From Phycisphaerales bacterium (GTDB taxonomy: Bacteria; Planctomycetota; Phycisphaerae; UBA1845; G020352895), in the NCBI GenBank assembly GCA_020352895.1, contig CP070685.1, positions 3,167,683 through 3,204,821 on the forward strand: 37,139 nucleotides of DNA, written 5' to 3'. Position numbers and translations under genes: made by a program. The notes under the pieces are model-generated. The model worked only from the letters and a program-made list of their open reading frames with translations, did no database searches and had not been told where the DNA came from. The stretch's first letter is position 1. Each line of letters begins with the position of its first letter. This document shows positions 12,423 to 31,515 of the stretch, piece after piece.

Positions 12423-15203
12423 CTAATTGGCTACGAAATGAGCGTCCAGGGCCTTGTCGATGCGTAGCTTGGACTCGCGCAGATGGGCGCGGCTGAAGAC
12501 ATCCAGCCCCTTGCCATCGGCCTCCATTTTGTCGCCGATCTTGTTGGCCAGGTCCTCCAGCGTCACAAAGGCGACACTACGCACATCCGAAGGAATCCCC
12601 AATGCGTCCGCGTCTCTGAGCACGATCTCGATCATCAGTTGCAGGTACGAGCGCTGCAGACCTCGCCGAAAGCTCGAGATGGCCGGCTTGCCCTGCTCGT
12701 CTTCCTTATCAAGCTCGGACCAGATCGAGTCGGTCAGCGTTTCGAACAGCTCGGCGATGGTCATGGTCTTGGTGCCGTCCTCGAGCTGAAGCTCCTGACC
12801 GTAGATACGATTCAGCGTAAACGGGTTCAGCATGGTGAACAGGGCCTGGTACTGGATCTGGCGGATGATCTCGTGCACGGGATACTGCACGAACAGGTCG
12901 AACTGATCCGATCCCCAGTGTGCGAACCGTCCGGGTGCCATCCGGTTCAACAACTTCGGAGAGAACTCCAGCGTTCCGTCCGCAAAGACCTTGTCACACA
13001 CCAGCTTGAGAGCTTCGCGCTGCTTGGCTAGATCGACCACCTTCATGGCCGGCTGCTCGTTCGGATCGCCCTTATAGGTGTAGTTGAGCTCCATGCCGCC
13101 GACGAACCGCGCAGCGAACTCTACCGCCCGGTTGTACTGGCGCAGGATGCGGAACAGCGTCCGCCGCAGCTTGGCATAGCTCTCCCCGTCGTCCACCGCC
13201 CAGTCCTGCATGTCCTTGATCAGACGGCGTGCCTGCTCCATCCGGTAACTGACGAAATCCAGCGGGTCCTTGCCCATGTCGTGCCGGTTCACGTACGGAT
13301 CCGGCGAGAAAAAGAACGCATCCAGATCGCTGGCGAACTGCAGCCCCTCCTCACCGGCCCGGCCGGTAATCGACTTGAGAAGCTCATCTTCGCTCTTGAA
13401 CGGCTCCTCCACCGGCTTGTATCCGTACTCGATCGCCCAGTAGTCGTAGGGGCCGATCGTGTTCGTCACGAACTGCGGCGTGTGCGCCTCGCCCTTCAGT
13501 TTGAACACGATCGGGCTGTAGTCCATGATTGACCCAACGGTGGCACGGTTGGGCGCCGACTTGCCGTTGACGATCTCGTCCAGGTCCAACCAGGTGCTGG
13601 CCTTGAAGTTGTGGGTCAGTCCCAGGCAGTGGCCGACCTCGTGCGTGGCCACCTCCTTGACCATGGACCCCAACACCTCATCGCTCAGCCCTTCCTCCCC
13701 CTCCGCCTCGGCCGCCGCCGACGCAAAGGCGAGCTCCTCGGCCATACTCCGCGCGAATGCACAGCAGAACCGTCCCTCGCGGAACATCTGCTCGGCAAAC
13801 CGCGCCTCCAGCTCCTTCCCGCTCGGTTCGGGAACCAGCCCGTGCCGCAGGCTGTGCGAGCTGATGGGCAGCAAGCGCTCGCGAAACGACGGCGCCCGCC
13901 ACTGCGGGTGAGCCTCCAGGAACTCGTCCAGCAGAGCGTCGTAATCACCAACCATCGAGTTGGCCGCGTACGCCTCGGTATCCTCCACCATGACACGCAA
14001 AAACGAGTCATCCATGACAATGTCCGCGTCGAAGATCTGCCCGGTTCGCGGGTGGGCCCGTGACGGGCCGGCCGCAAAGGGCTGTCCCGTCACGATCCAG
14101 CGGAAGAAATTGTAGCGGACGTCTTCGGGGTCCAGGTTGGCGAACTCGGTGTCGGTCTGCTGACGCACCTGAACCGCATCCAGGAAGCCGCACTTCTCGA
14201 AGGCCTTGTTCCACTCGAGAATGCCCTCCTTAACGTACTGCCGCCAGCGTATCGGCACTGTCTTCTCAATGTACCAGACGATGGGCTCCTTGACCGGCGA
14301 CAGCTTCAGCGACGGGTCCACCTTCTGCAGGTTCCACCGCTCGACGTATCGATTGAAAAGCGTGGCGGCGTCGTGCTTCTTGCCCCAATCCATGGTTGCG
14401 GTCATGAAGTATCCGATGCGCTCGTCCGCCCGGCGCGGCTTGTACTCCGTCTTCGGCAGCTCGCTCAGGCTGTAATGCAACAGGACGCGCGTGGCCGTCG
14501 CCCCGGGCCCTTGTTCGCTCATGGCCGTCTCTACCGGCAACTCCACATTCTTGGGAAACGCCTTGAATTTGCCCCACTTGCTCAGCCCGGGGTGAACCGT
14601 GCCGCCAAAGAGACGCGACCAGCCCAGCATGTCAGACTTGAATACCGCCCCCAAGTCGACGAGCGGATCGCCGGCCGGACTCTCCGTCAGGATGTCCACC
14701 GTGCTGATGATCCGGGCAGTGAACGAACGCTTGATCACGTCGCTAAGCGTGGACTCGGCCGCTTCTTCGTACCGCACGTCCGGCTGCACCAGCAGCAGCT
14801 TCTTGCCCATCCGCTCCCAGTGCACCATACGCGTCCCCCATTGAAAACCGGTGAACTGGGAGCCGCCCGACACGCTTGTGGCCATCAGGAAGTCCGCGCC
14901 CAGCAGCCCTTTCGGTATCTCCGCCAGCAGCGTGTCCTCTTTCTCCTTGTACCACAGGGGCAGGAAGGTCTTCTCCTCCGTCGGGTCCGCCGAATCGACC
15001 TGCGTGAAGCCCTTGGTCACTGCCTCAAAGGGCGGGAACTCGGGCTTCTCCTCCGCTTCTTTCTTGGCCGCTTCGTCGCCAGCAGCTTTGGCCTCCTGCT
15101 CGCCGGCCGCCAGGGCCGGGGCGCCTACAAGTCGGTCGCCCGCAAGAACAACCACGGCAAAAGCCAACGCCGCCACAAATCCACATCGTCGGTACTGCCT
15201 CAT
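12423..15203 (-). CDS. Exported zinc metalloprotease (DUF5117/DUF4953 type)
   Basis: A large secreted metzincin-like protease of 926 residues. It begins with a signal peptide (MRQYRRC..., hydrophobic core VAALAFAVVVLAG, likely cleavage after ALA) and a Lys/Glu/Ala-rich linker. The zinc site HEVGHCLGLTHNF starts at His521 (His521, Glu522, His525, His531), the extended HExxHxxGxxH signature. The arrangement and length fit the family with DUF5117 in the first half and DUF4953 around the zinc site. Physiological substrates are unknown. Met at 15203 is chosen because AAGGAG lies 7 bases upstream; the Met one codon earlier is also possible, and the Met at 15227 lies upstream of that ribosome site. 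A terminator follows the gene. The exported peptidase at 16.2 kb hints at shared peptide breakdown outside the cytoplasm. Confidence 0.93.
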   Translation of the reverse strand: MRQYRRCGFVAALAFAVVVLAGDRLVGAPALAAGEQEAKAAGDEAAKKEAEEKPEFPPFEAVTKGFTQVDSADPTEEKTFLPLWYKEKEDTLLAEIPKGLLGADFLMATSVSGGSQFTGFQWGTRMVHWERMGKKLLLVQPDVRYEEAAESTLSDVIKRSFTARIISTVDILTESPAGDPLVDLGAVFKSDMLGWSRLFGGTVHPGLSKWGKFKAFPKNVELPVETAMSEQGPGATATRVLLHYSLSELPKTEYKPRRADERIGYFMTATMDWGKKHDAATLFNRYVERWNLQKVDPSLKLSPVKEPIVWYIEKTVPIRWRQYVKEGILEWNKAFEKCGFLDAVQVRQQTDTEFANLDPEDVRYNFFRWIVTGQPFAAGPSRAHPRTGQIFDADIVMDDSFLRVMVEDTEAYAANSMVGDYDALLDEFLEAHPQWRAPSFRERLLPISSHSLRHGLVPEPSGKELEARFAEQMFREGRFCCAFARSMAEELAFASAAAEAEGEEGLSDEVLGSMVKEVATHEVGHCLGLTHNFKASTWLDLDEIVNGKSAPNRATVGSIMDYSPIVFKLKGEAHTPQFVTNTIGPYDYWAIEYGYKPVEEPFKSEDELLKSITGRAGEEGLQFASDLDAFFFSPDPYVNRHDMGKDPLDFVSYRMEQARRLIKDMQDWAVDDGESYAKLRRTLFRILRQYNRAVEFAARFVGGMELNYTYKGDPNEQPAMKVVDLAKQREALKLVCDKVFADGTLEFSPKLLNRMAPGRFAHWGSDQFDLFVQYPVHEIIRQIQYQALFTMLNPFTLNRIYGQELQLEDGTKTMTIAELFETLTDSIWSELDKEDEQGKPAISSFRRGLQRSYLQLMIEIVLRDADALGIPSDVRSVAFVTLEDLANKIGDKMEADGKGLDVFSRAHLRESKLRIDKALDAHFVAN

Positions 15204-15755
15204 CATCGCACTCCTTCGTGCCACCATCCGTCAGGTGTTGAATTCCGCAGGGCTAGCCACCCCACCTCCGCCGTTTGCGGCCGGCCACACGACAGGCCGG
15301 CAGAAGCCCGCCCGGCCGGTACGCAGGACACGTGTTGCTCAGGCGCGACCTGCTACACTTTAGGAACCGACGCACGTTCCTTCAGAAACGGCAGAATGCT
15401 GCTTCAGCCCCCTTATCGTCCCCCCGATCGGAGCGGCATAGCAAATCACCCACCCTGCGGGCCGGTCGAACTGACCACGCTACTTATCAGCGTCGCGCAG
15501 CTCACAACGTGAGCCCGGCACGTCGCCGAGACCGCATCCGCTATGGCAATACTGATACACCCGCAGAGCCCCTCTTGTTCCCCCGCCGCGTCAAGGACCT
15601 TGCAGAATAGCCGCAGAGAGTCGATAATGCGGGGCTGCTCCGGGCCGCGGCTTGTCCGCATGGCCTCTAAGACCTTGAGATAAAGGCAGTTAAGCCGCCG
15701 GCCATGACGGTTCCCGGTGGCTCTCCGCAGTTGTCCCTGCAACAGGAACCGAATC
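15204..15755. other. Divergent intergenic region
   Basis: 552 bases between the minus-strand protease and a small plus-strand gene. It includes the AAGGAG ribosome site of the protease (complement of 15211-15216) and an inverted repeat GGCCGG/CCGGCC (15295-15300 with 15312-15317). No convincing -35/-10 pair was found on either strand, and the open frames here have no gene-like features. Confidence 0.5.
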
Positions 15756-18296: not shown

Positions 18297-19244
18297 GTGG
18301 GATCAACGATCGAGGACATCTATCCGCAGTGGCGGCGGAGCATCGAGGCGGTCGGCCGGCTCGACAAGCTCTTCATCGTGGGCTGCGCCAAGTCCGGCAC
18401 CACCTGGCTGCAGAACCTGCTGCACGCCCACCCGCAGATGGTGGTCCGCGGCGAAGGCTGCTTTACCTACCAACTCGTGCCCTTGCTCAGCCAGGCCTTC
18501 GGGGCCTTCAACAAACACCAGCACGACAAGGACCCCATCACGCACATGCGCGACGCTGAACTGCTGCTGACCGCGCGCACCCTGATCGACAGCCAGTTCG
18601 CCCGCTACATCAGCGAGAGCCGCAAGCAGGCGTCCGGTCTGCGGGTCGTCGGCGACAAGACGCCCCAGCACACCATCAGCCTGCCGGCCTTGCACCAGCT
18701 TTACCCGAAAGCGAAGTTCATCAACATGATCCGCGACCCGCGCGACGTGGCCACCAGCGCGTGGTTCCACTTCGGCAGGAACGACCAGCGCGGCTTCGAG
18801 GAGTATATACGCTACTTCATGACTCAGGTCTGGCCGCTCAACGTCAACGCTCCGGCACAGGTGGCCGCGCAACTCGGCCCGCGCTACCGCACTATTCGCT
18901 ATGAAGACCTGCACGCCGACGAGCCCGTCCAGCTCAGGGACCTGCTCCAGTTTCTCGGCGTGGACGACTCCGACGCGGCCGTCCGGGCGTGCATGGAGGG
19001 CGGCAGCTTCAAAAGGCACTCGCGCGGCCGGGAGCGCGGCCAGACCGACAACGACCACTTCTACCGCAGCGGAACCGTCGGCGACTGGCAAAACCACCTG
19101 CCGGTCAGTCTAATCCAGGCCTGCTGCGGGTCTATCAAGCCGCTGATGCAAGAATATGGCTATGACAATGGTCTGCACGAGCAAGCGGACGCACCGGGCC
19201 AGGACGGCCGGTCGACCCAGACGGTCGCGGGCAGACGGCGATGA
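18297..19244 (+). CDS. PAPS-dependent sulfotransferase
   Basis: The 315-residue protein has both cofactor motifs of the sulfotransferase superfamily. The 5'-phosphosulfate loop CAKSGTTWLQN has Lys32, and the 3'-phosphate motif RDPRDVATSAW starts at Arg146. A later IRYEDLHADE matches the usual YEDL segment, and the C-terminal FYRSGTVGDWQNHL matches the RxGxxGDW motif typical of cytosolic and Stf-type enzymes. It should transfer sulfate from PAPS to a hydroxyl or amino group; the acceptor is unknown. Planctomycetes have many sulfatases, but none is in this window. The GTG start follows GGAG with 8 bases between. The protein lacks a signal peptide. An EthD-like gene follows after 51 bases and may be cotranscribed. 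Confidence 0.92.
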   Translation: MGSTIEDIYPQWRRSIEAVGRLDKLFIVGCAKSGTTWLQNLLHAHPQMVVRGEGCFTYQLVPLLSQAFGAFNKHQHDKDPITHMRDAELLLTARTLIDSQFARYISESRKQASGLRVVGDKTPQHTISLPALHQLYPKAKFINMIRDPRDVATSAWFHFGRNDQRGFEEYIRYFMTQVWPLNVNAPAQVAAQLGPRYRTIRYEDLHADEPVQLRDLLQFLGVDDSDAAVRACMEGGSFKRHSRGRERGQTDNDHFYRSGTVGDWQNHLPVSLIQACCGSIKPLMQEYGYDNGLHEQADAPGQDGRSTQTVAGRRR

Positions 19245-19604: not shown

Positions 19605-19956
19605 GCCCCGGGCTCAGACGGCCACCCAGGACGCCGCTTGCCCGGCCCGGGAGCCGGCGCCTTCCCCGGCCGGCCGAGACGCGCCGCATGGCCGCTGGCA
19701 GAGTGGAGACCGCCTACGGGCTGTCGCCCCTTGCCCATTTCCCCCATTCGGCGGAAAACCTCCAGCCGGAGCGGCGCGCCGCCTTTCCTGCCTCCCTGCC
19801 TGCCGGGTGTCGCACTTGGCGGCAGAATCCGATACAATATCCCGATTGTAGGGTTCCCGCCCGACACTGATGTGCCACTTGAGCAGCGCGTGTAGTCGCG
19901 CGCGGGGTTCGTGTTGGATCACGGGCAAGTCGAATAATTGTGAGGTAGACAACATC
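19605..19956. other. Intergenic region before the DUF1573 gene
   Basis: 352 bases. The left part is GC-rich with overlapping GGCC/CCGG inverted repeats (about 19650-19680) that could stop transcripts of the EthD-like gene. The right part is AT-richer, with a -10-like TACAAT at 19833-19838 but no good -35. GAGGTAG at 19942-19948 is the ribosome site of the next gene. Short open frames here show no coding signs. Confidence 0.5.
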
Positions 19957-21309
19957 ATGAACGCAGTACTGCCCTATCGCACACAGGCGCGCTCGTGCCG
20001 AAGCGCGTCGTGGACCTGGGTGCCCCTGCTGGGGATGGCCCTGCTGCTGATCGGTTGCGCCGAGGCGCAGACCGAACAGGCCGAGGAGCAGTCCGCTCCC
20101 ACGGCCGAACAGCCTGCTCCCCTGAAGGAGGCCGACGCCAGTACGCTCCAGGCCAAGGAGATGGCCGCGGCCGCCGCCAAGGATCGGAAAGCGGAGGACA
20201 AGGACTCCGGATGCGGCACGGACGACAAGACCCCGTTCCCGCCGCCGGAGTTGGACCAGAGCCAGGCGGGTACCCCCCGCTATGTCTGCGCCAAGAAGCA
20301 GGTTGAGTCCAAGCCGGTCTGGGCCGGTGAGCGGCTGACCTTCAGCTTCACCATCGGGAACCAGGGCACGGGCGACTTGGCCGTCAAACTGAAGGGTGGC
20401 TGAGGGGTGAAGATCGCCGGTCGGTCCGACCGGGTCATCAAGCCCAACGCCACCGAAGAGTTCGAGATCTCGCTTTCGTCGGCCAACCGATCGGGCAAAT
20501 TCACCCGCAAAATCGGCGTGACCACCAACGATCCGAACCAGCCTTCCGACTCGCTGGCCTGCGTGGGCAACGTGCTTGTGCCTTTCAAGACCGTCCCACG
20601 CACTGTGAACTTTGGCCAGCTCAAGCGCTCCGCGGAAGCGCAGACCAAGACGGTCGTGCTGACGAGAGGTGACGGCGGGCCACTCAGTCCCGAGGTGCAG
20701 CCCAGCAGAAGGCCTAATGTCAAGACTAACCTGCGCGAGATCGAGCAGGGCGATAAGTATGAGCTCGACGTGACCATCGAGCCGCCCTGGCCCAACACCC
20801 TCCGCTTCCGAGATCTCATCAACATCAACACGGGCGTCCCCGAGGCGCCACGAGGCAGCGTTACCGTGCACGCCCAGATCGTGCCCCGGCTGGAAGCCCA
20901 ACCGAAACAATTCAGCCTGCCCGGCGCCTTCCCCCAGGGACTGCAGCGCACGGCCAACCTCATCTGGGACGATGGCAACCCCGGCAAGATCATCGATGCC
21001 ACGGTCAACGATCCCGAACTGAGCGTCGAAGTTGTCGAGCAAGGGGGACGGCAGCGCCTGGTCCTGTCCGTGCCCGAAGGCTATCAGCAGAAGCCGGGCC
21101 GTCGCCAGGTCACGGTTCGCACGGAGGATGCTGACGCCCCGACACTTCAGGTGCCGGTGAGCTTTACGCGTTCCAGCGCAGGGCGGCCCGCCGTCAACCG
21201 GGCAAAAATGCCGCGCGGGCGTAGTCCCCAGGGACGGCCTCCGCCGAAGCGGATGGGAACCACGGCCACCGAGCCTCCGAAAGAGCAGCCGCCCGAGGAG
21301 GGGAAGTAG
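19957..21309 (+). CDS. DUF1573 lipoprotein with in-frame UGA (candidate selenoprotein)
   Basis: One reading frame runs 450 residues, broken only by TGA at 20401-20403 (residue 149). It begins with a lipoprotein signal ending LLIGC (Cys34), then a Gln/Glu/Ala-rich linker. Residues about 120-190 are a DUF1573 domain: VWAGERLTFSFTIGNQGTGDL before the UGA, VIKPNATEEFEISLSS and GKFTRKIGVTTNDPNQP after it. In the family this position holds the first Cys of a CGC motif. The remaining residues form further immunoglobulin-like beta domains. The downstream half has no signal peptide and starts mid-domain, so it is not an independent gene. Selenocysteine insertion is supported by the position and the stem-loop downstream; a nonsense mutation (TGC to TGA) or a sequencing error is the alternative. 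The ATG follows GAGGTAG with 8 bases between. The domain's function is unknown. Confidence 0.8.
20404..20445 (+). promoter_or_regulatory. SECIS-like stem-loop immediately after the in-frame UGA
   Basis: CCGGTC (20417-20422) pairs perfectly with GACCGG (20428-20433) around the loop GGTCC. Below it GAT (20412-20414) can pair with ATC (20437-20439), and GGG just after the UGA with CCC (20443-20445), with internal loops. Nineteen bases separate the UGA from the apical loop, and the loop starts GG. Bacterial SECIS hairpins such as that of E. coli fdhF lie directly after the UGA, within the coding region, with a G at the start of the apical loop (GGUC in fdhF). GC-rich DNA gives such stems by chance, so this is supportive, not decisive. 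Confidence 0.5.
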
Positions 21310-22112: not shown

Positions 22113-22709
22113 GTCGCCTACTCCCGGCCGCGTCTGCATGTGCCGCCGTCTGGACCTGGCCCGTTTGAGCCTGACAACTTCTCGTTACCTCAGCCTGGCT
22201 CGGCCCGAAACGCCTCTGAGCCGCCTGACGATGGGCCGGACACGCCGCCGCCCGAAACGCCGCTGGCCGCGGCGCGGCGGTGCGGCCTTCCTTGACACCC
22301 CTGATGTTAGGGGTAGGATCATAGTAGAGAAAGAGCTAGCCATTGTTCCCGCCATCGGCGGGCCAGCCTGATGTTGCCAACCGGGCCCCCTGAAGGATCA
22401 GTGACCAGTTTTCCGCGCTAGTCGCCTGTGTGTCCCGCCTTGCAGGGTGCCTTCTGGTGGCGCCGGAACCATGGCCCTGGCGGCCGCGGAGTTCGGCTCT
22501 GCCTTTACTTCGCGGCGCCAGAGAAGGATACTGTGCCCCAACCGAGTCCGCCAGGCGCGGGCTCGCCTTGGAAAGCACCGACAAGCGGCGACCCTCCGCA
22601 CCCCGATGGGCCGGAATCCCCAGCCGCTCGCGGTTACGTCGGCGCGGTGAACAGCCACGAATCCCGCCGCCGACCGGCCCAGCCCGGTCGGCTTACGAAG
22701 GAGTCCCCT
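22113..22709. other. Divergent intergenic region with a long leader
   Basis: 597 bases between the dUTPase-like gene and the pilus operon. A strong plus-strand promoter candidate with an internal palindrome lies at 22292-22319. If used, it leaves an untranslated leader of about 385 bases. That leader includes a tight hairpin, CCCGCC (22348-22353) pairing with GGCGGG (22357-22362), without a T tract. AAGGAG at 22698-22703 is the pilM ribosome site. The leader is open in the pilM frame from 22428, but that part lacks motifs and a ribosome site. No known riboswitch was recognised. Confidence 0.55.
22292..22319 (+). promoter_or_regulatory. Candidate promoter with palindromic operator for the pilus/secretion operon
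   Basis: A consensus -35 TTGACA (22292-22297) and TAGGAT (22314-22319, 4/6 match) are 16 bases apart. The inverted repeat ACCCCT (22297-22302) and AGGGGT (22309-22314), with a six-base spacer, fills the space between them. That is the usual place for a repressor or MerR-type activator site. It points toward the pilM-like gene at 22710. Confidence 0.5.
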
Positions 22710-24857
22710 ATGGCTGCTCCTAAGGAAGCATGGGGCTTGGACGTCGGACAGGTAGCTCTCAAGGCCGTCAGAATCCGCGAACTCGGCGATCGCGTCGAGG
22801 CCATCGCCTACGACTACATCGAGCATCCCAAGGTGCTCTCTCAGGCGGACCAGGACGCGGACGAGCTGATTCGTCAGGCCATCGAGAAGTTCGCCTCCCG
22901 CAACGAGGTCGGCTCCACGCCGGTCGCCATCGGCGTGCCGGGCCATCACACCCTGGCCCGATTCACCAAGCTGCCCCCCGTCGACACCAAGAAGATTCCC
23001 GACATCGTCAAGTACGAGGCCGAGCAGCAGATCCCCTTCGACCTGGACGAGGTCATCTGGGATTACCAGGTCTTCGGCGGAGAGGGCGGCCCGGACCTGG
23101 AGGTGGGCATCTTCGCCATGAAGCGGGACCTGATCGGCACCCACTTGGCCCCGTTCGTCGCCCAGGGCATCCAGCCGGGCATCGTCCAGGCCGCCCCGCT
23201 GGCCATGTTCAACGCCCTGGTCTATGACGGCATCGCCGAGGTGAGTGCGGAAAACGCCGCCCAAGGCACTGTCATGCTGGACATCGGGGCCGTCAACAGC
23301 AATCTCATCATCGGGGCCGGCAACGGACTGTGGACGCGAACCATTCAGATCGGCGGCAACACCTTCACCGAAGCTTTGGTCAAGGTCTTCAAGCTTTCCT
23401 TCTCCAAGGCCGAGAACCTCAAACGAACCGCCCCCAGCAGCAAGTATGCCCGCCAGGTCTTCCAGGCCATGCGCCCGGTCTTCGCCGACCTGGTTGCCGA
23501 GGTACAGCGATCCCTCGGCTTTTACAGCTCCACGCGCCGTGATGTGAAGATTGTCCGCCTGATCGGCATGGGCAACGCCTTTCAGATGCCCGGCCTGCAG
23601 AAGTTCATTCAGCAGAACCTGGGCATCGAAGTGATCAAGCCGGAGACCTTCAACAACCTGGTTCCTACGACCGGCACCCACCCCAAGGAGTTTCAGGAGA
23701 ACCTTCTGGGCTACGGGGTCGCCTATGGTCTGGCGCTCCAGGCTCTCGGGCGAGGCCGCGTCACCAGCAACCTCCTGCCCACCGAGATCAGCCGCCAAAC
23801 CGTCTGGCGTACCAAGCATCCATGGTTCGCAGGCGCGGCCGCTTGCCTGCTCCTGGCTGCGGGCATCATTTGGGCCCGCCAGTTCATCGACAAAGGTGCT
23901 TTGGCGACGGTCAGAGGAGATTACGACGGGCGCATTCCCACAATGACCTACGAACAAGCCCGCGACCAGTTGGCCCGAGGGGGCGTCTCGGACAAGCCTG
24001 CCCGTGAGTACGCGGCCGAGTGGCTGGCGATCGCTAAGGCCCTCAACGACGAGATGGCCAAGAAGCAAGAGGAAGGCAAGGCTCTGCGCGAACAGTTGGA
24101 GCGCCTTGGCGACCTGCAGACCAATAAGAACACGGTGCTAGCCGTGCTCAACGCCCTTCACCAGGCCCTGCCCAATGCCGACACACCTTTGAACCGGTCG
24201 GCCACCATGAAGGAGTACGCCGAGCTGGCCAAGGATGAACGCTTCGTTCGCGACAAGCGGCAGGAACTGTACATTGACGAGTTCGAATGCTTCTACGATC
24301 CCGATGTCGTCAAGCTGGCTTACGACACCATCCCCCAGGACGAAGAACTGGGCAACATGTATGAGTATCCCGACGACTACATAGCCCCCGGCTTCGTGAT
24401 CCAGATGAGGTTGCGCAGCCCCAACGCCAGTGCTCAGTACCCCGACGAGACCTTCATCGCCAACCTTCGCCGGTTCAGCCGGCAGCCCGATCGCGACTTC
24501 TATTTCGACTTCATCCGCGTGGTCTCCCGACGGCAGCTCCGAGGCGGCTCCCGGCTGGACCTGGTGGTCGCCCCCACCGTTGCCGGGGCTCGCGGCGGTT
24601 CTGCTCGAGAGCAGGAGGAGGCCGCCAGTCGCCTGGATCCCGTGACCGGTGAATCTATGGAAACCGACTGGCAATACATCGTTTCTCTCATGGTCATTCT
24701 GGGCCAGCCGCCACAAGAATTCGCCGGCGAGGCGCCGCCCGAGGCTGCGGCCGAGGCGCCCCGAGAACCCCCACGAGATCGTGCGGATCGTCGCCGCGAG
24801 CAGCCGCCGGAGGAAGAAGAAGATATGCCTAGTGAGGATGAAACCAGGCGCGACTAG
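22710..24857 (+). CDS. pilM: PilM-like ATPase fused to a membrane-anchored PilN-like region
   Basis: Residues 1-360 of 715 match PilM, the actin-fold cytoplasmic protein of type IV pilus and type II secretion assembly. The first phosphate motif is GLDVGQVALKAVRI, then IPFDLDEVIWDYQVF typical of PilM, the second phosphate motif MLDIGAVNSNLIIGAGN, and a C-terminal VAYGLALQALG. Unlike PilM, the chain continues through a transmembrane helix at about 371-392 (WFAGAAACLLLAAGIIWARQ) into 320 residues with a coiled-coil stretch and a mixed alpha-beta part, ending in a Pro/Glu-rich tail. This suggests that PilM and its membrane partner PilN are one polypeptide; the PilN assignment is inferred from order and topology. 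ATG at 22710 follows AAGGAG by 6 bases. It is the first gene of a five-gene operon. Confidence 0.85.
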   Translation: MAAPKEAWGLDVGQVALKAVRIRELGDRVEAIAYDYIEHPKVLSQADQDADELIRQAIEKFASRNEVGSTPVAIGVPGHHTLARFTKLPPVDTKKIPDIVKYEAEQQIPFDLDEVIWDYQVFGGEGGPDLEVGIFAMKRDLIGTHLAPFVAQGIQPGIVQAAPLAMFNALVYDGIAEVSAENAAQGTVMLDIGAVNSNLIIGAGNGLWTRTIQIGGNTFTEALVKVFKLSFSKAENLKRTAPSSKYARQVFQAMRPVFADLVAEVQRSLGFYSSTRRDVKIVRLIGMGNAFQMPGLQKFIQQNLGIEVIKPETFNNLVPTTGTHPKEFQENLLGYGVAYGLALQALGRGRVTSNLLPTEISRQTVWRTKHPWFAGAAACLLLAAGIIWARQFIDKGALATVRGDYDGRIPTMTYEQARDQLARGGVSDKPAREYAAEWLAIAKALNDEMAKKQEEGKALREQLERLGDLQTNKNTVLAVLNALHQALPNADTPLNRSATMKEYAELAKDERFVRDKRQELYIDEFECFYDPDVVKLAYDTIPQDEELGNMYEYPDDYIAPGFVIQMRLRSPNASAQYPDETFIANLRRFSRQPDRDFYFDFIRVVSRRQLRGGSRLDLVVAPTVAGARGGSAREQEEAASRLDPVTGESMETDWQYIVSLMVILGQPPQEFAGEAPPEAAAEAPREPPRDRADRRREQPPEEEEDMPSEDETRRD

Positions 24858-24923
24858 CCCCAGGCTGCTCCAGCCCGTCTCTGCCACGCCGGCAGAGGCA
24901 CAGCGCAGAGAGGAGAACCCGGC

Positions 24924-26153
24924 GTGAAGTTCATGAAGCGGCATGCATTCCTGTTCATCTGTGCGGGCGCGGCCGCGATCGGAATCGGTTTGGCCGCGCT
25001 CGGCATGACCCGTGGGGCCGACGTCGTCCAGCAGCTCGAGGAAGGGCGCAGTCTGGCCGGCCAGATCGACACGTTCCTTGACCGCCAACCCGCTACCGTG
25101 GCGAACATCGAGCAGATGGACCGTCAGATCGAACAGCTGCGTGAGGCCCGCAATGCCTTCATGGAAGAGGCTGGCCGCGTGAACCGTCGCCCGCCGCTGA
25201 TCGAAGATTTCTTCCCTCAGCCGACTGACCCCGGGGCCCGCTATGCTTTCCAGGATGCCTACAAGGAACAGTTCGATCGGTTCCTGGCCGACCTGCACGC
25301 CGGTACGCTCGCCGACCGCGAGGAACTGAAGAACTGGAAATCCATGATTGATGAAGAGCTCCGGGCCTATAGTGCCGGTGAAACCCCGGTGGGATTCAGC
25401 AATGTGGACCCACTCGTGCTTGCCGAGTTGCCTGACGCAGTACGCTGGAACCACGCTGCTCGTGCCGCCATCTGGATAGCACGGCATTCGCGCTGCTACG
25501 CCGAGCTCGGCTCCTTCGACATCAAGGCCAGCGTCTACCAGGCCTCTGAGACGGATCCTCCGACCATGGACCGCTACTGGTCGGCGCAGACCAGCTTGTG
25601 GGTACAGCAGGATATTGTTGCGGCCATCCTCGCCGTTAACAACGCTCGGGCGGAGGAGTTGGCCTCAGCGGGTCGCGAGGACACGGAAGTCTGGGTAGGC
25701 CAGATGCCTGTTAAGCAGATCGTCGGGATCCGGGTAGGCGATTATCTTTACGAGGACCAGGAGCCGCCCCTGCTGGACGAGAGCCCGCTTCAGAGCATCT
25801 ACCAACGCCGCGGCTTCCAGGTGTCCATCGATGTGGGCAATCCGACAGAGGACGTATTGGCGGTCATCACGGAACGTGGTGGGACCCGGCAATTCGATGT
25901 GATGCACGTGCGTATCGTGCTCGTCGTGGATCCGCGTTATCTGCCCACGGTGCTCGACGAGATCCTGAAACGAAGCCTCTACACCCTCCTGAACGTGCGC
26001 TATCGCTACGTACCCGTGAGCCGGAATCACGTGGGCCTGCTGTATGGCTCCGATCCGGTGGTTCAGGTGGAGATTGATCTGGCTTCTCACTGGCTGAGCG
26101 AGATCTACTTCAGCATGATGCCCGACGAAACCAAGGACAGGCTGGGATTCTGA
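24924..26153 (+). CDS. Bitopic inner-membrane protein of the pilus/secretion operon (PilO/GspM-like by position)
   Basis: No family was recognised from sequence alone. The 409-residue protein has one N-terminal transmembrane helix (residues 6-28, HAFLFICAGAAAIGIGLAAL), followed by a coiled-coil segment (about 35-85) and a large periplasmic part. Near residues 315-370 the pattern FDVMHVRIVLVVDPRYLPTV and VRYRYVPV suggests a small alpha-beta, ferredoxin-like domain. Topology and position after a PilM-like gene match PilO/GspM, which form the inner-membrane platform, but this is inference. The GTG start has AGGAG 8 bases upstream; the Met three codons later is less well placed. It begins 66 bases after the previous stop. 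Confidence 0.8.
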   Translation: MKFMKRHAFLFICAGAAAIGIGLAALGMTRGADVVQQLEEGRSLAGQIDTFLDRQPATVANIEQMDRQIEQLREARNAFMEEAGRVNRRPPLIEDFFPQPTDPGARYAFQDAYKEQFDRFLADLHAGTLADREELKNWKSMIDEELRAYSAGETPVGFSNVDPLVLAELPDAVRWNHAARAAIWIARHSRCYAELGSFDIKASVYQASETDPPTMDRYWSAQTSLWVQQDIVAAILAVNNARAEELASAGREDTEVWVGQMPVKQIVGIRVGDYLYEDQEPPLLDESPLQSIYQRRGFQVSIDVGNPTEDVLAVITERGGTRQFDVMHVRIVLVVDPRYLPTVLDEILKRSLYTLLNVRYRYVPVSRNHVGLLYGSDPVVQVEIDLASHWLSEIYFSMMPDETKDRLGF

Positions 26154-26194
26154 TCACCCCGCACGTCCGCAGTGAACGGACGAGGTTTGCAGCC

Positions 26195-28081
26195 ATGGCC
26201 AAGCAGCGAATCAACGTTTTCGAAGCCCACGTTGAAAAGGCGGTGCTCGGTTTGACGGGTGCTGTGCTCGTCGTGGTGGCGTTCTTCTATCTCGTTCAGA
26301 CTCCCAACGTCATCGAGACCATGGGACAGGCATATGGCCCCGGCGACTACGACAGAGAAGTGGTGCGCACGAAGGCCGACAACCTGAAAGCGTTGTTCAA
26401 CCGCCCGCCGACAGCGCCGGAGCCGATCCCCGACATGCTCCGCGAGTTCAGGCGGCTTCAGGATCAGCCACTGGCCAGCGTGGGGGCCGCAGCCCACTGG
26501 CCCGCCATTCAGCCATGGCGGCCGTCCGTTCCCCCGGCCCTGGGAGTCAAGCCCACCCAACCCGGCCAGATTCTGCTGGCCCAAGTGGTGCCTCCCAATC
26601 AGCCTCTGGCCTATCCCGGGCTGACCACCATTGAAGTCGAGACGCCGCTGCCGCTCGGCGGTAAGCAGTTGTCACGATCGGAGCGGGCAGACCTGCAGGC
26701 CACGATTCGTGAGAAGGACTCCAGTTGGGTGACCGTTGCGGCCATCTTCGATCTGGAAGCCATGCGCCGCGAGTTCCGCGGGGCCCACTATGACAGCGAT
26801 CTGCAGGACATCATCATCTGTCGCGTCCGGGCCCAGCGGCAAAGACTGCTACCCAGCGGTGCCTACAGTGGCTGGGAAGACATCGAGCCTTGGACGCCGT
26901 ACGTCCGCCCCGAGCAACCCGAGATCCAACTCGTCCCCCGCGGTGACACATACTCACTGACCCAGAAACTCGCCGACAGCATCAGGCAATACATTGAGAC
27001 CATCTGGACCTACGCCCCCGAGATCAAAACCCCGCTACCGCCTTATTCGGTGGCGGGTGATGAGTGGCGTCTGCCGCCGCTCAAGGACATCAATTGGTGT
27101 TCCCTGGACCTGGAGTGGCTGCAATTGGCTCCCAACGAAGACGGTTGCAATCCGGTCTACGCCGAATTGCCCGAACCCGTCCAGGTGGCTGAGGGCGCTA
27201 AACCCGGCGCGTCGCTGCCGCGCGGCAAGCAGCGTAGCATGGCACGCAAAAAGGCCGCAGAGGATTACCGCCGGGCCGACGAACTCTTCGCCAGCGGCAA
27301 GCCGGACGACCTTTATGAGTGCGAACGCCTCCTGCGCGGCATTAAGGACAACAAGGACGCCTCCAAACGACTTAAGGAGAAGGCGGACAAGCTCCTGGCT
27401 GGCGTTCTCATCAAGATCGACGAACTTGAGGCCCAGCGAGCACCGGATGCCACCGAGCAGCAGCAAACGGACCAGGCCGCCGTGCCCAAACCGGACGAGC
27501 AACAGCCCGCCACGGTCGTCTGGGTCCATGACATGCCGATCGAGCCCGGGCAGACGTATCGCTACCGCTTGGCGGTGGACCTCTACAACACGTACGTGGG
27601 CAACTATGACAAGCTCAAAGACCTCTCCGCCGCTTCCAGCCTTTTCGTCCGTGGCGAGTGGTCGTTGCCCAGCAATCCGGCCACGGTCAAACCTGAAACG
27701 GCCTTCTTCGTAACCTCGGTCGACGGCCGGGAAGCCAAGATTGATCTGTACAAGTGGTTCCGCGGTCGCGTAGCCTACCGGAAAATCCGGGCCCAACTTG
27801 GCGAGCGCATCACCCTCCAGGACTTCGTGAAGCTCCCCGGCGAGAGCGGCCGCTTTGCGGTGGACTTCGATACGGGCTTTGACCTGATGAGCATGGAAGA
27901 CCGGAACGTGCTGGTCCGGGAGGCGGTGGGCCGCGAAGGGGCCTTTCGCTACCGCGAGGAATCCACGCCGGTCATCGTTTGTGCGGATGACCGGGGGCGA
28001 CTCATCGAGCGATGCAAGGCCACCGACGAGGAAGAGCAGCGTGAATGGGCAGCCCTGGCCAAGAAATTCAAGAGTGAGTGA
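26195..28081 (+). CDS. Membrane-anchored protein of the pilus/secretion operon, unknown family
   Basis: I do not recognise this 628-residue protein. It has a short cytoplasmic N-terminus and a transmembrane helix (about 17-36, AVLGLTGAVLVVVAFFYLVQ); the rest is probably periplasmic. A Pro-rich linker (about 60-130) precedes folded segments. Around 350-410 lies a helical-pair stretch (YRRADELFASGKPDDLYECE), then a Gln/Pro-rich linker. From about 445, EPGQTYRYRLAVDLYNTY looks like a fibronectin-type beta domain. A single helix with Pro-rich spacers resembles PilP/GspC or TonB-like proteins that span to the outer-membrane secretin, and the secretin gene follows. That role is inferred. It starts 41 bases after the preceding gene. 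Confidence 0.78.
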   Translation: MAKQRINVFEAHVEKAVLGLTGAVLVVVAFFYLVQTPNVIETMGQAYGPGDYDREVVRTKADNLKALFNRPPTAPEPIPDMLREFRRLQDQPLASVGAAAHWPAIQPWRPSVPPALGVKPTQPGQILLAQVVPPNQPLAYPGLTTIEVETPLPLGGKQLSRSERADLQATIREKDSSWVTVAAIFDLEAMRREFRGAHYDSDLQDIIICRVRAQRQRLLPSGAYSGWEDIEPWTPYVRPEQPEIQLVPRGDTYSLTQKLADSIRQYIETIWTYAPEIKTPLPPYSVAGDEWRLPPLKDINWCSLDLEWLQLAPNEDGCNPVYAELPEPVQVAEGAKPGASLPRGKQRSMARKKAAEDYRRADELFASGKPDDLYECERLLRGIKDNKDASKRLKEKADKLLAGVLIKIDELEAQRAPDATEQQQTDQAAVPKPDEQQPATVVWVHDMPIEPGQTYRYRLAVDLYNTYVGNYDKLKDLSAASSLFVRGEWSLPSNPATVKPETAFFVTSVDGREAKIDLYKWFRGRVAYRKIRAQLGERITLQDFVKLPGESGRFAVDFDTGFDLMSMEDRNVLVREAVGREGAFRYREESTPVIVCADDRGRLIERCKATDEEEQREWAALAKKFKSE

Positions 28082-28404
28082 CCCTTGCCGCCTGCTCCGG
28101 CGAGGGCCTGCGAGGCGTTTCCCGCGGGGGTCCCGGTCTGCCCACTGGAGCCCCCCAGCCGTTTGCATTCGGTGCGTCGGGAGACTAAACTCACAGCCTG
28201 GGAAATGGCGCGGGACGGGCATTCCCCCCTCCCCCCGCAGAGGTCCTGCCACGGCCGGGCCGACGGGCAGCCATGCGGCACGCCAGACACTGACCTGGGC
28301 TTGATGATGTCTTGAACCCACCCGCATCGGTGGCGCTACAGGCTGGCAACGAGAAGCGCCCCCGCCGAGCGCGCCTTCGTGGCGCTCAAAAAGGAGGACA
28401 TCCT
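28082..28404. other. Gap upstream of the secretin gene
   Basis: 323 bases without a convincing gene. Near its end the inverted repeat GAGCGC (28367-28372) and GCGCTC (28382-28387) directly precedes the strong ribosome site AAGGAGG (28391-28397) of the secretin. The hairpin could tune translation or be the end of a processed transcript. No promoter is evident. The frame is open back to 28312, but the N-terminus there would be unlike a signal peptide. Confidence 0.5.
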
Positions 28405-31400
28405 TTGATCACCAGAAGTTCTCCCCTGTGCTTATTCGTGGTGTTGCTCCTGCTGACGACAGTGGCCTTGCCTGCCAACGCTCAAACGCCCGACGAAGAA
28501 CTCGATCGGGCCGTCGAGCTTTTCGACGCGGGCCATTACACCGAGGCCCAGCAAGTCCTCCTGGCCATCGATCGTGATACTCTCAGCGACGAAAAGCGCG
28601 AACTCCGCGACAGATACGTGGACGAGGTGAGACTGGCCATCAGTCTATCCACAAAGGCCCAGCAGGACTTCAGCCAGGCCGAGACAGCTTTCGACAACGG
28701 CGACCTGGACCGCGCCGAGTTGCTCTACCGCGCAGTGGTCCGCAACGACTACGCCACGGAGGATCTTCGTGCCGTCGCCCAGGAAGCTCTGGCTCGCATC
28801 GACGAGAAACGCCAGCTTGACGCCGCTCTCGAGCAGGCTGAAGAGGCACCCAGCCAGGAACCTTCCGAGCTGCCACGGGTTGAGCCGACCTCGGCTCGGG
28901 AACCCGGATTTCAAAGCGATTATCCCACCGAAGCCCGGGCTCTGGTGGCCCGAGGGCAGGCCGCCCTCGCTCAAGGCGACTATGTTCAGGCCCGCGACAG
29001 CTTCGAGGCCGCGCTGGCCATCGAGCCCGGCATGCCCGAGGCCGTCGCCGGGCTCAACGAGGCCCGCAACATGGCGACGGTCGATGCCGAGGGGCAGCCT
29101 CTGGTAGACCGCATTCGGTTCCAGCGTAACCTGCTGTGGTCCCGGACCGAGGCTACATACCGACAACTCGAGGCCGAAGCCCGCCAGGCCGTGGCCGACG
29201 AGGACTTCGATACCGCCAACATGAAGGTCCTGCGCGCGCGCCAGGTGATCGAGAGCGGCCGCGCCTACGCCGACCCTGTCAGCCTGTACGAGAACCTCCG
29301 TGACCAGGTCGAGGAGCTGGAACGCTACGTCATGCGACAGGAGGAGCTGTGGGCCGAGCGCGATCTTCAAGAGAAGCGCCAGGATGTTGCCCAGCAGGAG
29401 GCCATGCGGCGCCAGCAGATCGAAGAGTCGCGCCGGATCCGCATCGAGGCTCTCATGGATCAGGCCCGTCAGTTCCAGCGCGAGCGCCGCCTCGAGCAGG
29501 CCATCGATGCCCTTCGTCAGATTGAAGCCATCGATCCCACCTACGACCGAGCCAAGTGGATGCGCGAGGACCTCGAGAATACGCTCTTCCTTTGGAACCA
29601 GCGCGATTTCCGGGAGGATTTATACGTCGCGCAGTCCGAAGCCGTGTTTGACGTCGAGAAGGCCAAGATGCCGGCCCTCGAAGTCATCAAGTACCCGAAG
29701 AATTGGCCGGAGATCACCGCCAAGCGCATGCCCTACGGCCTGGGTATTTTCGGCAGTTCCGACCCCTCCGCAGCCGCGCGGGCCCGGCTCAGCGCCGTCG
29801 TACCCGAGGTCAAGATGGACGCCCTGGCCTTTGATAACGCCCTTGATGAACTCCACAAGATGGGCGACTTCAACATGCACGTAAACTGGCGTGCCCTGGC
29901 CGACGCCGGCGTCGACCCCAAGACCCCCATCACGGCCGACTTGTCCGACATCAAGCTGGAGAAGGCGCTCTCCTTGGTGCTGACCGACGCCTCGCTACCC
30001 GACGCGCCTCTGGCCTATGAGGTTGATGACGGCGTGGTCACCGTCTCCACGCGCGAGGATCTCGATCGCCGCACGGTCACCCGTGTCTATGACATTCGCG
30101 ACCTGGTCGTGCACGTCCCCAATTTCGACGATGCCCCCAACATCGAGTTACGGCCTTCCGCCAACCAGATTGATCCCCGGCGCGACCGCATGACCGAATC
30201 GCTGTTCGACACGGACCAGGAGGAGCCGCTGAGCGACGCGAATCCCGACGGTTCCGTCGTGGCCAAGATACTCGACACGATTCGCGATACGGTCTACCCT
30301 GGCACCTGGCGCGAACAAAACGGCCTGATCGGATCCATCCGCGAGCTGAACGGCCAGATCATCGTCACCCACACGCTTCAGGCCCAGGAGCAGTTGACCA
30401 GCCTGCTGGATCAGCTCCGCGAGGCGCGCAACATCCAGGTCAACGTCGAGTCCCGATTCCTCGTGGTTCGCACCAACTTCCTCGAGGACATCGGCATGGA
30501 CCTGGACATCATTCTGAACTCCGGCAACGCCGGATTCGACACGGCCATGGTGCCCGACGCAAACGGCATCCCCCAACTGGCCGCCGATCCGGCTACGGGC
30601 GGCCTACTGCTCATCCCGCGGCAGTTCAGCCGCCTCGGCTTTCTGCCCGGAACTCCAGGGCTCGGAACGGCCTTCGCTGGCAACATCATCCCCAACCAGC
30701 CTTACGGGCAGGTGGGAATGGTCCCGGGAACCGGTGACGTGGCCCCGCACTCAGGGCAGTGGACGCCGGTGCCCATTTTGAACAACGTGTTGGGCTTTGC
30801 TGATCCACGCAATATTCAGACCGGCGTGCCCGGCAGCTTCGCCGGCTCGGCCTTCCAGGAGCCGGCCCTGCAGATGTTCGGCAGTTTCCTGGACAACATC
30901 CAGGTCGACTTCCTGCTGCGCGCAACGCAGGCCGACGGACGTTCGACGTTCCTCGAGGCACCGCGGTTGACGCTTTCCAATGGGCAACGAGCCTACGTGG
31001 CCGTCGTGACCCAGCAGGCCTACATCTCCGCGCTGAATGCGGTCGTGGCCGAGGAGGTCGGCCAGGTCGAGCCGGTCATCAGCACACTGAACACCGGGTC
31101 GGTTCTTGACGTCGAGGCCACCGTGGGGGCGGACCGCCGATATGTCACTCTGACCGTGCGGGCCGGCCGGGCCATCCTCGAGGAGCTCGTGCCCGTCGAA
31201 GTGCAGACCACGGGCACGTCCACCCGTGGTGTCGGTGCCGTCGTCCAGTTGCCACGCGTGCAGGTCGCCCTGGCCCGGGCCACCATCACCATCCCCGAAG
31301 GCGGAACGGTTCTGCTCGGCGGTCTGCGGCAGACCGGCGAGGTCGAGCTGGAGGGCGGCGTACCCATCCTGTCCAAGATCCCGGTGCTCAAGAGGGCCTA

Positions 31401-31515
31401 CTCCAGCCGGAGCACAGCCAGGGACGAGAACGTGCTGCTCATCATGGTCAAACCCTCCATCGTCATTCTCGAGGAGGCCGAGGAGGACGCCTTCCCGAGC
31501 TTCAGCATGCGGTAA
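28405..31515 (+). CDS. Secretin (GspD/PilQ family) with N-terminal helical repeats
   Basis: The 1036-residue outer-membrane channel protein starts at TTG. That start gives AAGGAGG 7 bases upstream and a clean signal peptide (ITRSSPLCLFVVLLLLTTVA, cleavage near ANA). Residues 30-320 are TPR-like repeats (such as AVELFDAGHYTEAQQVLL and GQAALAQGDYVQARDSF), and a Gln/Glu/Arg-rich coiled stretch follows. At 470-590 a secretin N-domain-like region ends in RVYDIRDLVVHVP. NGQIIVTHTLQAQEQLTSLL leads to the secretin core from 680, which has VESRFLVVRTNFLEDIGMDL and ends with GGLRQTGEVELEGGVPILSK and LLIMVKPSIV. It should form the multimeric gate for a pilus or exported proteins. Operon position after the PilM-like and two bitopic genes agrees. 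The TPR half is unusual for GspD. Confidence 0.92.
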   Translation: MITRSSPLCLFVVLLLLTTVALPANAQTPDEELDRAVELFDAGHYTEAQQVLLAIDRDTLSDEKRELRDRYVDEVRLAISLSTKAQQDFSQAETAFDNGDLDRAELLYRAVVRNDYATEDLRAVAQEALARIDEKRQLDAALEQAEEAPSQEPSELPRVEPTSAREPGFQSDYPTEARALVARGQAALAQGDYVQARDSFEAALAIEPGMPEAVAGLNEARNMATVDAEGQPLVDRIRFQRNLLWSRTEATYRQLEAEARQAVADEDFDTANMKVLRARQVIESGRAYADPVSLYENLRDQVEELERYVMRQEELWAERDLQEKRQDVAQQEAMRRQQIEESRRIRIEALMDQARQFQRERRLEQAIDALRQIEAIDPTYDRAKWMREDLENTLFLWNQRDFREDLYVAQSEAVFDVEKAKMPALEVIKYPKNWPEITAKRMPYGLGIFGSSDPSAAARARLSAVVPEVKMDALAFDNALDELHKMGDFNMHVNWRALADAGVDPKTPITADLSDIKLEKALSLVLTDASLPDAPLAYEVDDGVVTVSTREDLDRRTVTRVYDIRDLVVHVPNFDDAPNIELRPSANQIDPRRDRMTESLFDTDQEEPLSDANPDGSVVAKILDTIRDTVYPGTWREQNGLIGSIRELNGQIIVTHTLQAQEQLTSLLDQLREARNIQVNVESRFLVVRTNFLEDIGMDLDIILNSGNAGFDTAMVPDANGIPQLAADPATGGLLLIPRQFSRLGFLPGTPGLGTAFAGNIIPNQPYGQVGMVPGTGDVAPHSGQWTPVPILNNVLGFADPRNIQTGVPGSFAGSAFQEPALQMFGSFLDNIQVDFLLRATQADGRSTFLEAPRLTLSNGQRAYVAVVTQQAYISALNAVVAEEVGQVEPVISTLNTGSVLDVEATVGADRRYVTLTVRAGRAILEELVPVEVQTTGTSTRGVGAVVQLPRVQVALARATITIPEGGTVLLGGLRQTGEVELEGGVPILSKIPVLKRAYSSRSTARDENVLLIMVKPSIVILEEAEEDAFPSFSMR

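Follow-up and report, generated by a model that had tools for sequence, protein, structure and literature searches.

The window, by which we mean the whole stretch of 37,139 nucleotides analysed here (contig CP070685.1 of a Phycisphaerales bacterium), contains a gene on the forward strand that begins with an ATG at 19957, ends at 21309, and on translation has a single internal TGA, at 20401-20403 (residue 149). A Shine-Dalgarno-like GAGGT, read from the sequence, lies about 10 nt 5' of the ATG on the same strand (19942-19946). The predicted product of 450 residues has an N-terminal lipobox, LLLIGC, and a match to DUF1573 (PF07610) that spans the UGA (residues 113-197, 34.2 bits, above the Pfam gathering cut-off of 26.1). 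The UGA is aligned with the first cysteine of the CGC motif of DUF1573, and paralogues in the same genome carry CGC at this position.

An AlphaFold2 model of residues 100-412, made from an input alignment of 22 sequences, had a pLDDT of 94 and predicted beta-sandwich Ig-like domains, three by our own count. DSSP on this model placed the first Ig-like (DUF1573) domain at approximately 20254-20700 on the forward strand, with residue 149 in a loop that would be flanked by strands E42-47 and E52-54. Termination at the UGA would be expected to halve this domain, cutting it amid its strands, which argues against a true stop. Solved structures matching the model were Ig-like proteins of the ciliary central apparatus, which we take to be of the ASH/HYDIN type, and other Ig-like proteins, including 2qsv from Porphyromonas gingivalis.

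A sulfotransferase gene (18297-19244) lies upstream on the same strand. Downstream, the region 22428-31515 encodes a PilM-like protein, the products of two unassigned open reading frames, and a secretin, and resembles a cluster for type IV pilus assembly. A Met-zincin protease of the DUF4953/DUF5117 type is encoded on the reverse strand at 12423-15227.

The initial annotation described a bacterial SECIS-like hairpin immediately after the UGA, and the sequence it gave is correct: CCGGTC (20417-20422) pairs with GACCGG (20428-20433) around the loop GGTCC (20423-20427). An additional pair, G20423-C20427, extends the helix to 7 bp (20417-20423 with 20427-20433, forward strand), closing a GUC triloop at 20424-20426. 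The distance of 19 nt from the UGA that had been given for the stem applies to the start of the loop (20 nt in the closed triloop form); the stem itself starts 13 nt after the UGA, beyond a spacer at 20404-20416. The weaker pairs described below the stem do exist in the window, but they are not conserved: 52.9% of the cells in that region were paired among the homologues described below, under the shuffled mean of 54.3%, and we rejected a conserved lower stem. Scanned against Rfam, neither the window nor 20300-20560 gave an RNA family match worth keeping.

The minimum free energy was -19.1 kcal/mol for 20404-20445 and -20.6 kcal/mol for 20401-20446, the latter having a z-score of -2.2 against shuffled sequences, 6 of 200 of which folded equally well. 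The loose published criteria for bacterial SECIS elements were satisfied at 53% of the 8066 codon positions in the larger open reading frames of the G+C-rich window; a strict form (7 Watson-Crick pairs, a G[G/U] loop and the same spacing) was found at 0.07% of codon positions in these frames. With generic rules fitting about half of all positions, the evidence of a single sequence is weak, and it is the comparison of homologues that decides. The window taken alone gives modest support for a SECIS element, and the earlier statement that the hairpin supports recoding independently of homology was too strong. By the same token a hairpin on its own proves little against the possibility of a genuine stop codon, or of a decaying gene, with the hairpin a by-product of high G+C content.

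Homologues were sought first in 101 genomes and then in 114 of the same Phycisphaerae order. Many homologues had exactly one TGA, and 37 distinct genes had it in the same column, nearly all in a context resembling KGG-U-G; five genes had cysteine there. None of the 37 had cysteine at position +2 relative to the selenocysteine (Sec). In the TGA homologues the reading frame was kept on both sides of the UGA, and conservation of protein and frame ran about 300 residues past it in dozens of genes. This conservation refutes a true stop in practice, the covariation of the stem described below also speaks against one, and we regard termination at the UGA as very improbable. Relatives named by GTDB, found by a search with an alignment of six close sequences, were metagenome-assembled genomes (MAGs) of Phycisphaerae and other Planctomycetota. 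Among 392 genomes across the phylum searched at an E-value of 1e-45, there was no TGA form other than that of the window. A search of genome contigs with a single protein gave no match, as the query peptides lacked conservation.

All 37 distinct TGA genes have the hairpin; homologues with TGA and no conserved hairpin, which would have told against it, were not found. The 48-nt alignment starting at the UGA was gapless, so that the spacer and the distance to the loop were constant throughout. RNAalifold recovered the same seven pairs unprompted. Over the 37 genes, 94.6% of stem cells were paired, compared with 82.8% in shuffles, and 30 cells had changed on both sides, compared with 8.4. The compensatory changes proposed as a check were present: the covariation score was 0.309 against 0.110 in shuffles, a value reached in none of 500, and versions of the stem slid along the alignment scored 0.116 at most. 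The G at alignment column 24 (G20424 in the window), in the loop, was invariant, and column 25 was G or T in all 37 genes.

Three stem pairs covary, and in each, one partner is always a third codon position. The wobble base of Arg(+10) pairs with position 2 of codon +5 (AAC-CGT, AGC-CGC, ATC-CGA), that of Gly(+6) with position 2 of codon +9 (GGT-GAC, GGC-GGC), and that of Ser/Ala(+8) with position 2 of codon +7 (CGG with TCC or GCC, CAG with TCT or GCT, CCG with GCG or GTG). Apart from a minority of exceptions, the synonymous base thus tracks a partner base whose changes alter the amino acid. A tree made without the hairpin codons gave 13 independent contrasts, of which about 11.5 went in the same direction and none in the opposite one; the contrasts for any single pair were too few for significance alone.

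The sequence of the stem also encodes a conserved peptide, G[RQP]xDR, which constrains part of it, and four of the seven pairs hardly vary and are uninformative, so the hairpin might merely reflect the peptide GRSDR or GQSDR and have no function as RNA. Pairing persists, however, while the peptide varies (GRSDR, GQADR, GPVDR, GPGGR, GQLGR, GGSTR), and the coupling of wobble bases to their partners is, judging from the aligned genes, not explained by protein constraint. Synonymous-codon resampling retained a mean of 4.3 of the 7 pairs, whereas at least 6 were present in 35 of the 37 genes; folds as good as that of the window gene (7 of 7 pairs) were uncommon in this null (p 0.02), as the SECIS reading had anticipated for shuffled sequences. 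In L117, one of the two genes with fewer than six pairs, the fold is one base out of register (GCGGGUG-GGUC-CACCCGC). A covariance model trained on the 37 hairpins found only the window's site in the 3.6-Mb genome, at 55.3 bits with the next site at 17.4; membership of the window gene in the training set inflates the score of that site, and the weight of this search rests on no other site coming near.

The genes with cysteine in place of Sec serve as controls. These five are nested within the Sec tree and represent three changes, and three of them have lost the stem. The genome G082 has the two forms in tandem, a Sec copy that keeps the stem (CACGGTC..GACCGT) beside a Cys copy that has lost it (CACGGGG..GATCGC). 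The near-identical Cys genes L024 and L025 keep 6 of 7 stem positions paired, with the loop CGAAG and an A following the loop G. The loss of pairing in most Cys copies whose peptide is similar is a further argument against the peptide as its cause, and we give that explanation very little chance of being correct. Recoding of UAG was considered in the genomes G064 and G076 and rejected; the TAG is an ordinary stop at the end of the gene, and the Sec position is Cys.

Across the 37 homologues the stem has been kept by matched base changes, so the UGA is almost certainly read as Sec and not as a stop, and the genome has the corresponding machinery. A tRNA-Sec with anticodon UCA scored 66.5 bits (cut-off 47), selB adjoins selA, and the set of selA, selB, selC and selD is represented, with selD as its C-terminus only. 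The genome is a MAG with gaps, and runs of N at 654041 and 1611086 of its contig (G000:C1) cut selB and selD. The N-terminus of selB is lost at such a gap and its score falls under the curated cut-off; by our own reading of the sequence, the selD fragment lies beside another. By our own count, selA was found in 16 of 16 genomes that have a TGA gene and are at least 90% complete, and the six TGA-gene genomes with no selA match were all at most 87% complete. Since selA is present in 96 of the 114 genomes of the order, co-occurrence with it cannot be used as a sharp test.

Some kind of readthrough is clear, and it might occur by another route, with UGA read as Trp or Gly, or through general suppression with regulated readthrough. 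The residue aligned in relatives is cysteine, however, and neither Trp nor Gly; the only in-frame TGA of the gene is at that cysteine column; and tRNA-Sec, selA and selB are present. We consider such a route the least probable of the alternatives, to the point of being negligible.

Two features of the selA matches may be recorded here. One match (G501:C353:463-1812) contains a single TGA, which may come from faulty sequencing or encode Sec in selA itself. In 11 genomes (G064, G076, G082, G018, G042, G086, G003, G014, G080, G038, G009) the match to the profile (family f4) is split near position 260, as if there were a short insertion there.

The covarying stem conserved in the 37 TGA genes supports the bacterial SECIS reading first proposed for this hairpin. 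Very probably, on the comparative evidence, it is a coding-region bacterial SECIS element at which SelB delivers Sec to the UGA, yielding a full-length DUF1573 (OS_HP2-like) lipoprotein. By analogy with Escherichia coli, a ribosome would reach the UGA at 20401-20403 while SelB-GTP carrying Sec-tRNA (Sec, UCA) binds the stem-loop at 20417-20433, whose loop has the pattern N1-G-[G/U]-N-N2, and SelB would insert Sec at residue 149. Translation would then run on to 21309, giving a lipid-anchored periplasmic or surface protein with three Ig domains in which Sec replaces the first cysteine of the usual CGC motif. More weakly, we infer that the Sec serves as a selenol in redox chemistry or metal binding, its partner thiol having shifted from position +2.

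Candidates for such a thiol occur at two positions. A cysteine in the N-terminal linker, at -58 to -79 from the Sec, was present in 23 of 35 testable genes, and a cysteine at +26 in eight genes, never together with the linker cysteine. In the window (20209-20217) and in relatives, a recurrent Gly-Cys-Gly occurs in the linker of most Sec forms and is absent where there is a cysteine at +26. The linker-type cysteine was found in none of eight genes with a UGC motif, and four of the five Cys genes have a second cysteine at -1. The distribution of these candidates is structured by clade. The positions of the partner thiol therefore seem, from the alignments, to have moved, which we treat as a lead only. 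It is quite possible, if somewhat short of probable, that these genes form their own branch of DUF1573 selenoproteins, limited to one Phycisphaerae order among the genomes searched, a branch in which the resolving cysteine at +2 was lost and a thiol is supplied elsewhere, from the flexible N-terminal linker or from +26.

The outcome is a set of SECIS elements supported by covariation, from 37 genes of one family. Planctomycete genes of this kind are prone to wrong annotation as two truncated open reading frames. The natural series of Sec and Cys forms, some in tandem in one genome, could be used to study the role of selenium in an Ig-like protein of the cell surface.

The SECIS element of E. 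coli fdhF lies in the coding region straight after the UGA and has a short apical stem and a loop with GGU. The window's element resembles it in its coding location after the UGA and in its short apical stem, and its loop, GGUCC, contains GGUC; unlike the fdhF element, it has neither a conserved bulged U in the stem nor a conserved lower stem. The consensus of Zhang and Gladyshev, as restated in PMC13188914 (Fig. 2), describes a stem of 4-16 bp, a loop of 3-9 nt with the pattern N1-G-[G/U]-N-N2 and a G in its first two positions, a spacing of 16-37 nt, and a minimum free energy of -7.5 or below. The window's hairpin agrees with it throughout, in stem length, loop size and energy, in the distance of the apical loop from an in-frame UGA and in a G at one of the two opening loop positions with G or U next to it on the 3' side, and nothing in it falls outside the model; its structure is moreover conserved by compensatory change. 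In G+C-rich DNA this consensus is too loose to count as evidence.

DUF1573 selenoproteins with the motif UGC are tabulated in PMC9312934 and PMC13188914, the former crediting the entry to a study of Olavius algarvensis symbionts (its reference 63). Among the papers searched, none pairs DUF1573 with planctomycetes. The NCBIfam family OS_HP2_seleno (NF041425) was matched by all 28 members scanned. The window protein scored 52.4 bits, short of its cut-off of 100, and UGC relatives in the same order scored 80-93 bits. Like OS_HP2, the window gene encodes an Ig-like domain with Sec at the first cysteine of CGC. The hairpin CCGGUCAGUAUGACCGG, or a close variant of it, occurs in UGC-type DUF1573 selenoprotein genes of the same order (L127, L132-L138), equally far from the UGA as in the window branch. 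The window branch differs from OS_HP2 in having UG[T/V/M/F/I/L] (UGV in the window) with the second cysteine absent, in encoding a longer lipoprotein with three predicted domains, and in its Phycisphaerae hosts. On these comparisons the hairpin is an element common to the UGC relatives, and the window genes are a divergent branch in which position +2 is never cysteine; the SECIS device is a known one, and this branch of DUF1573 appears to be new.
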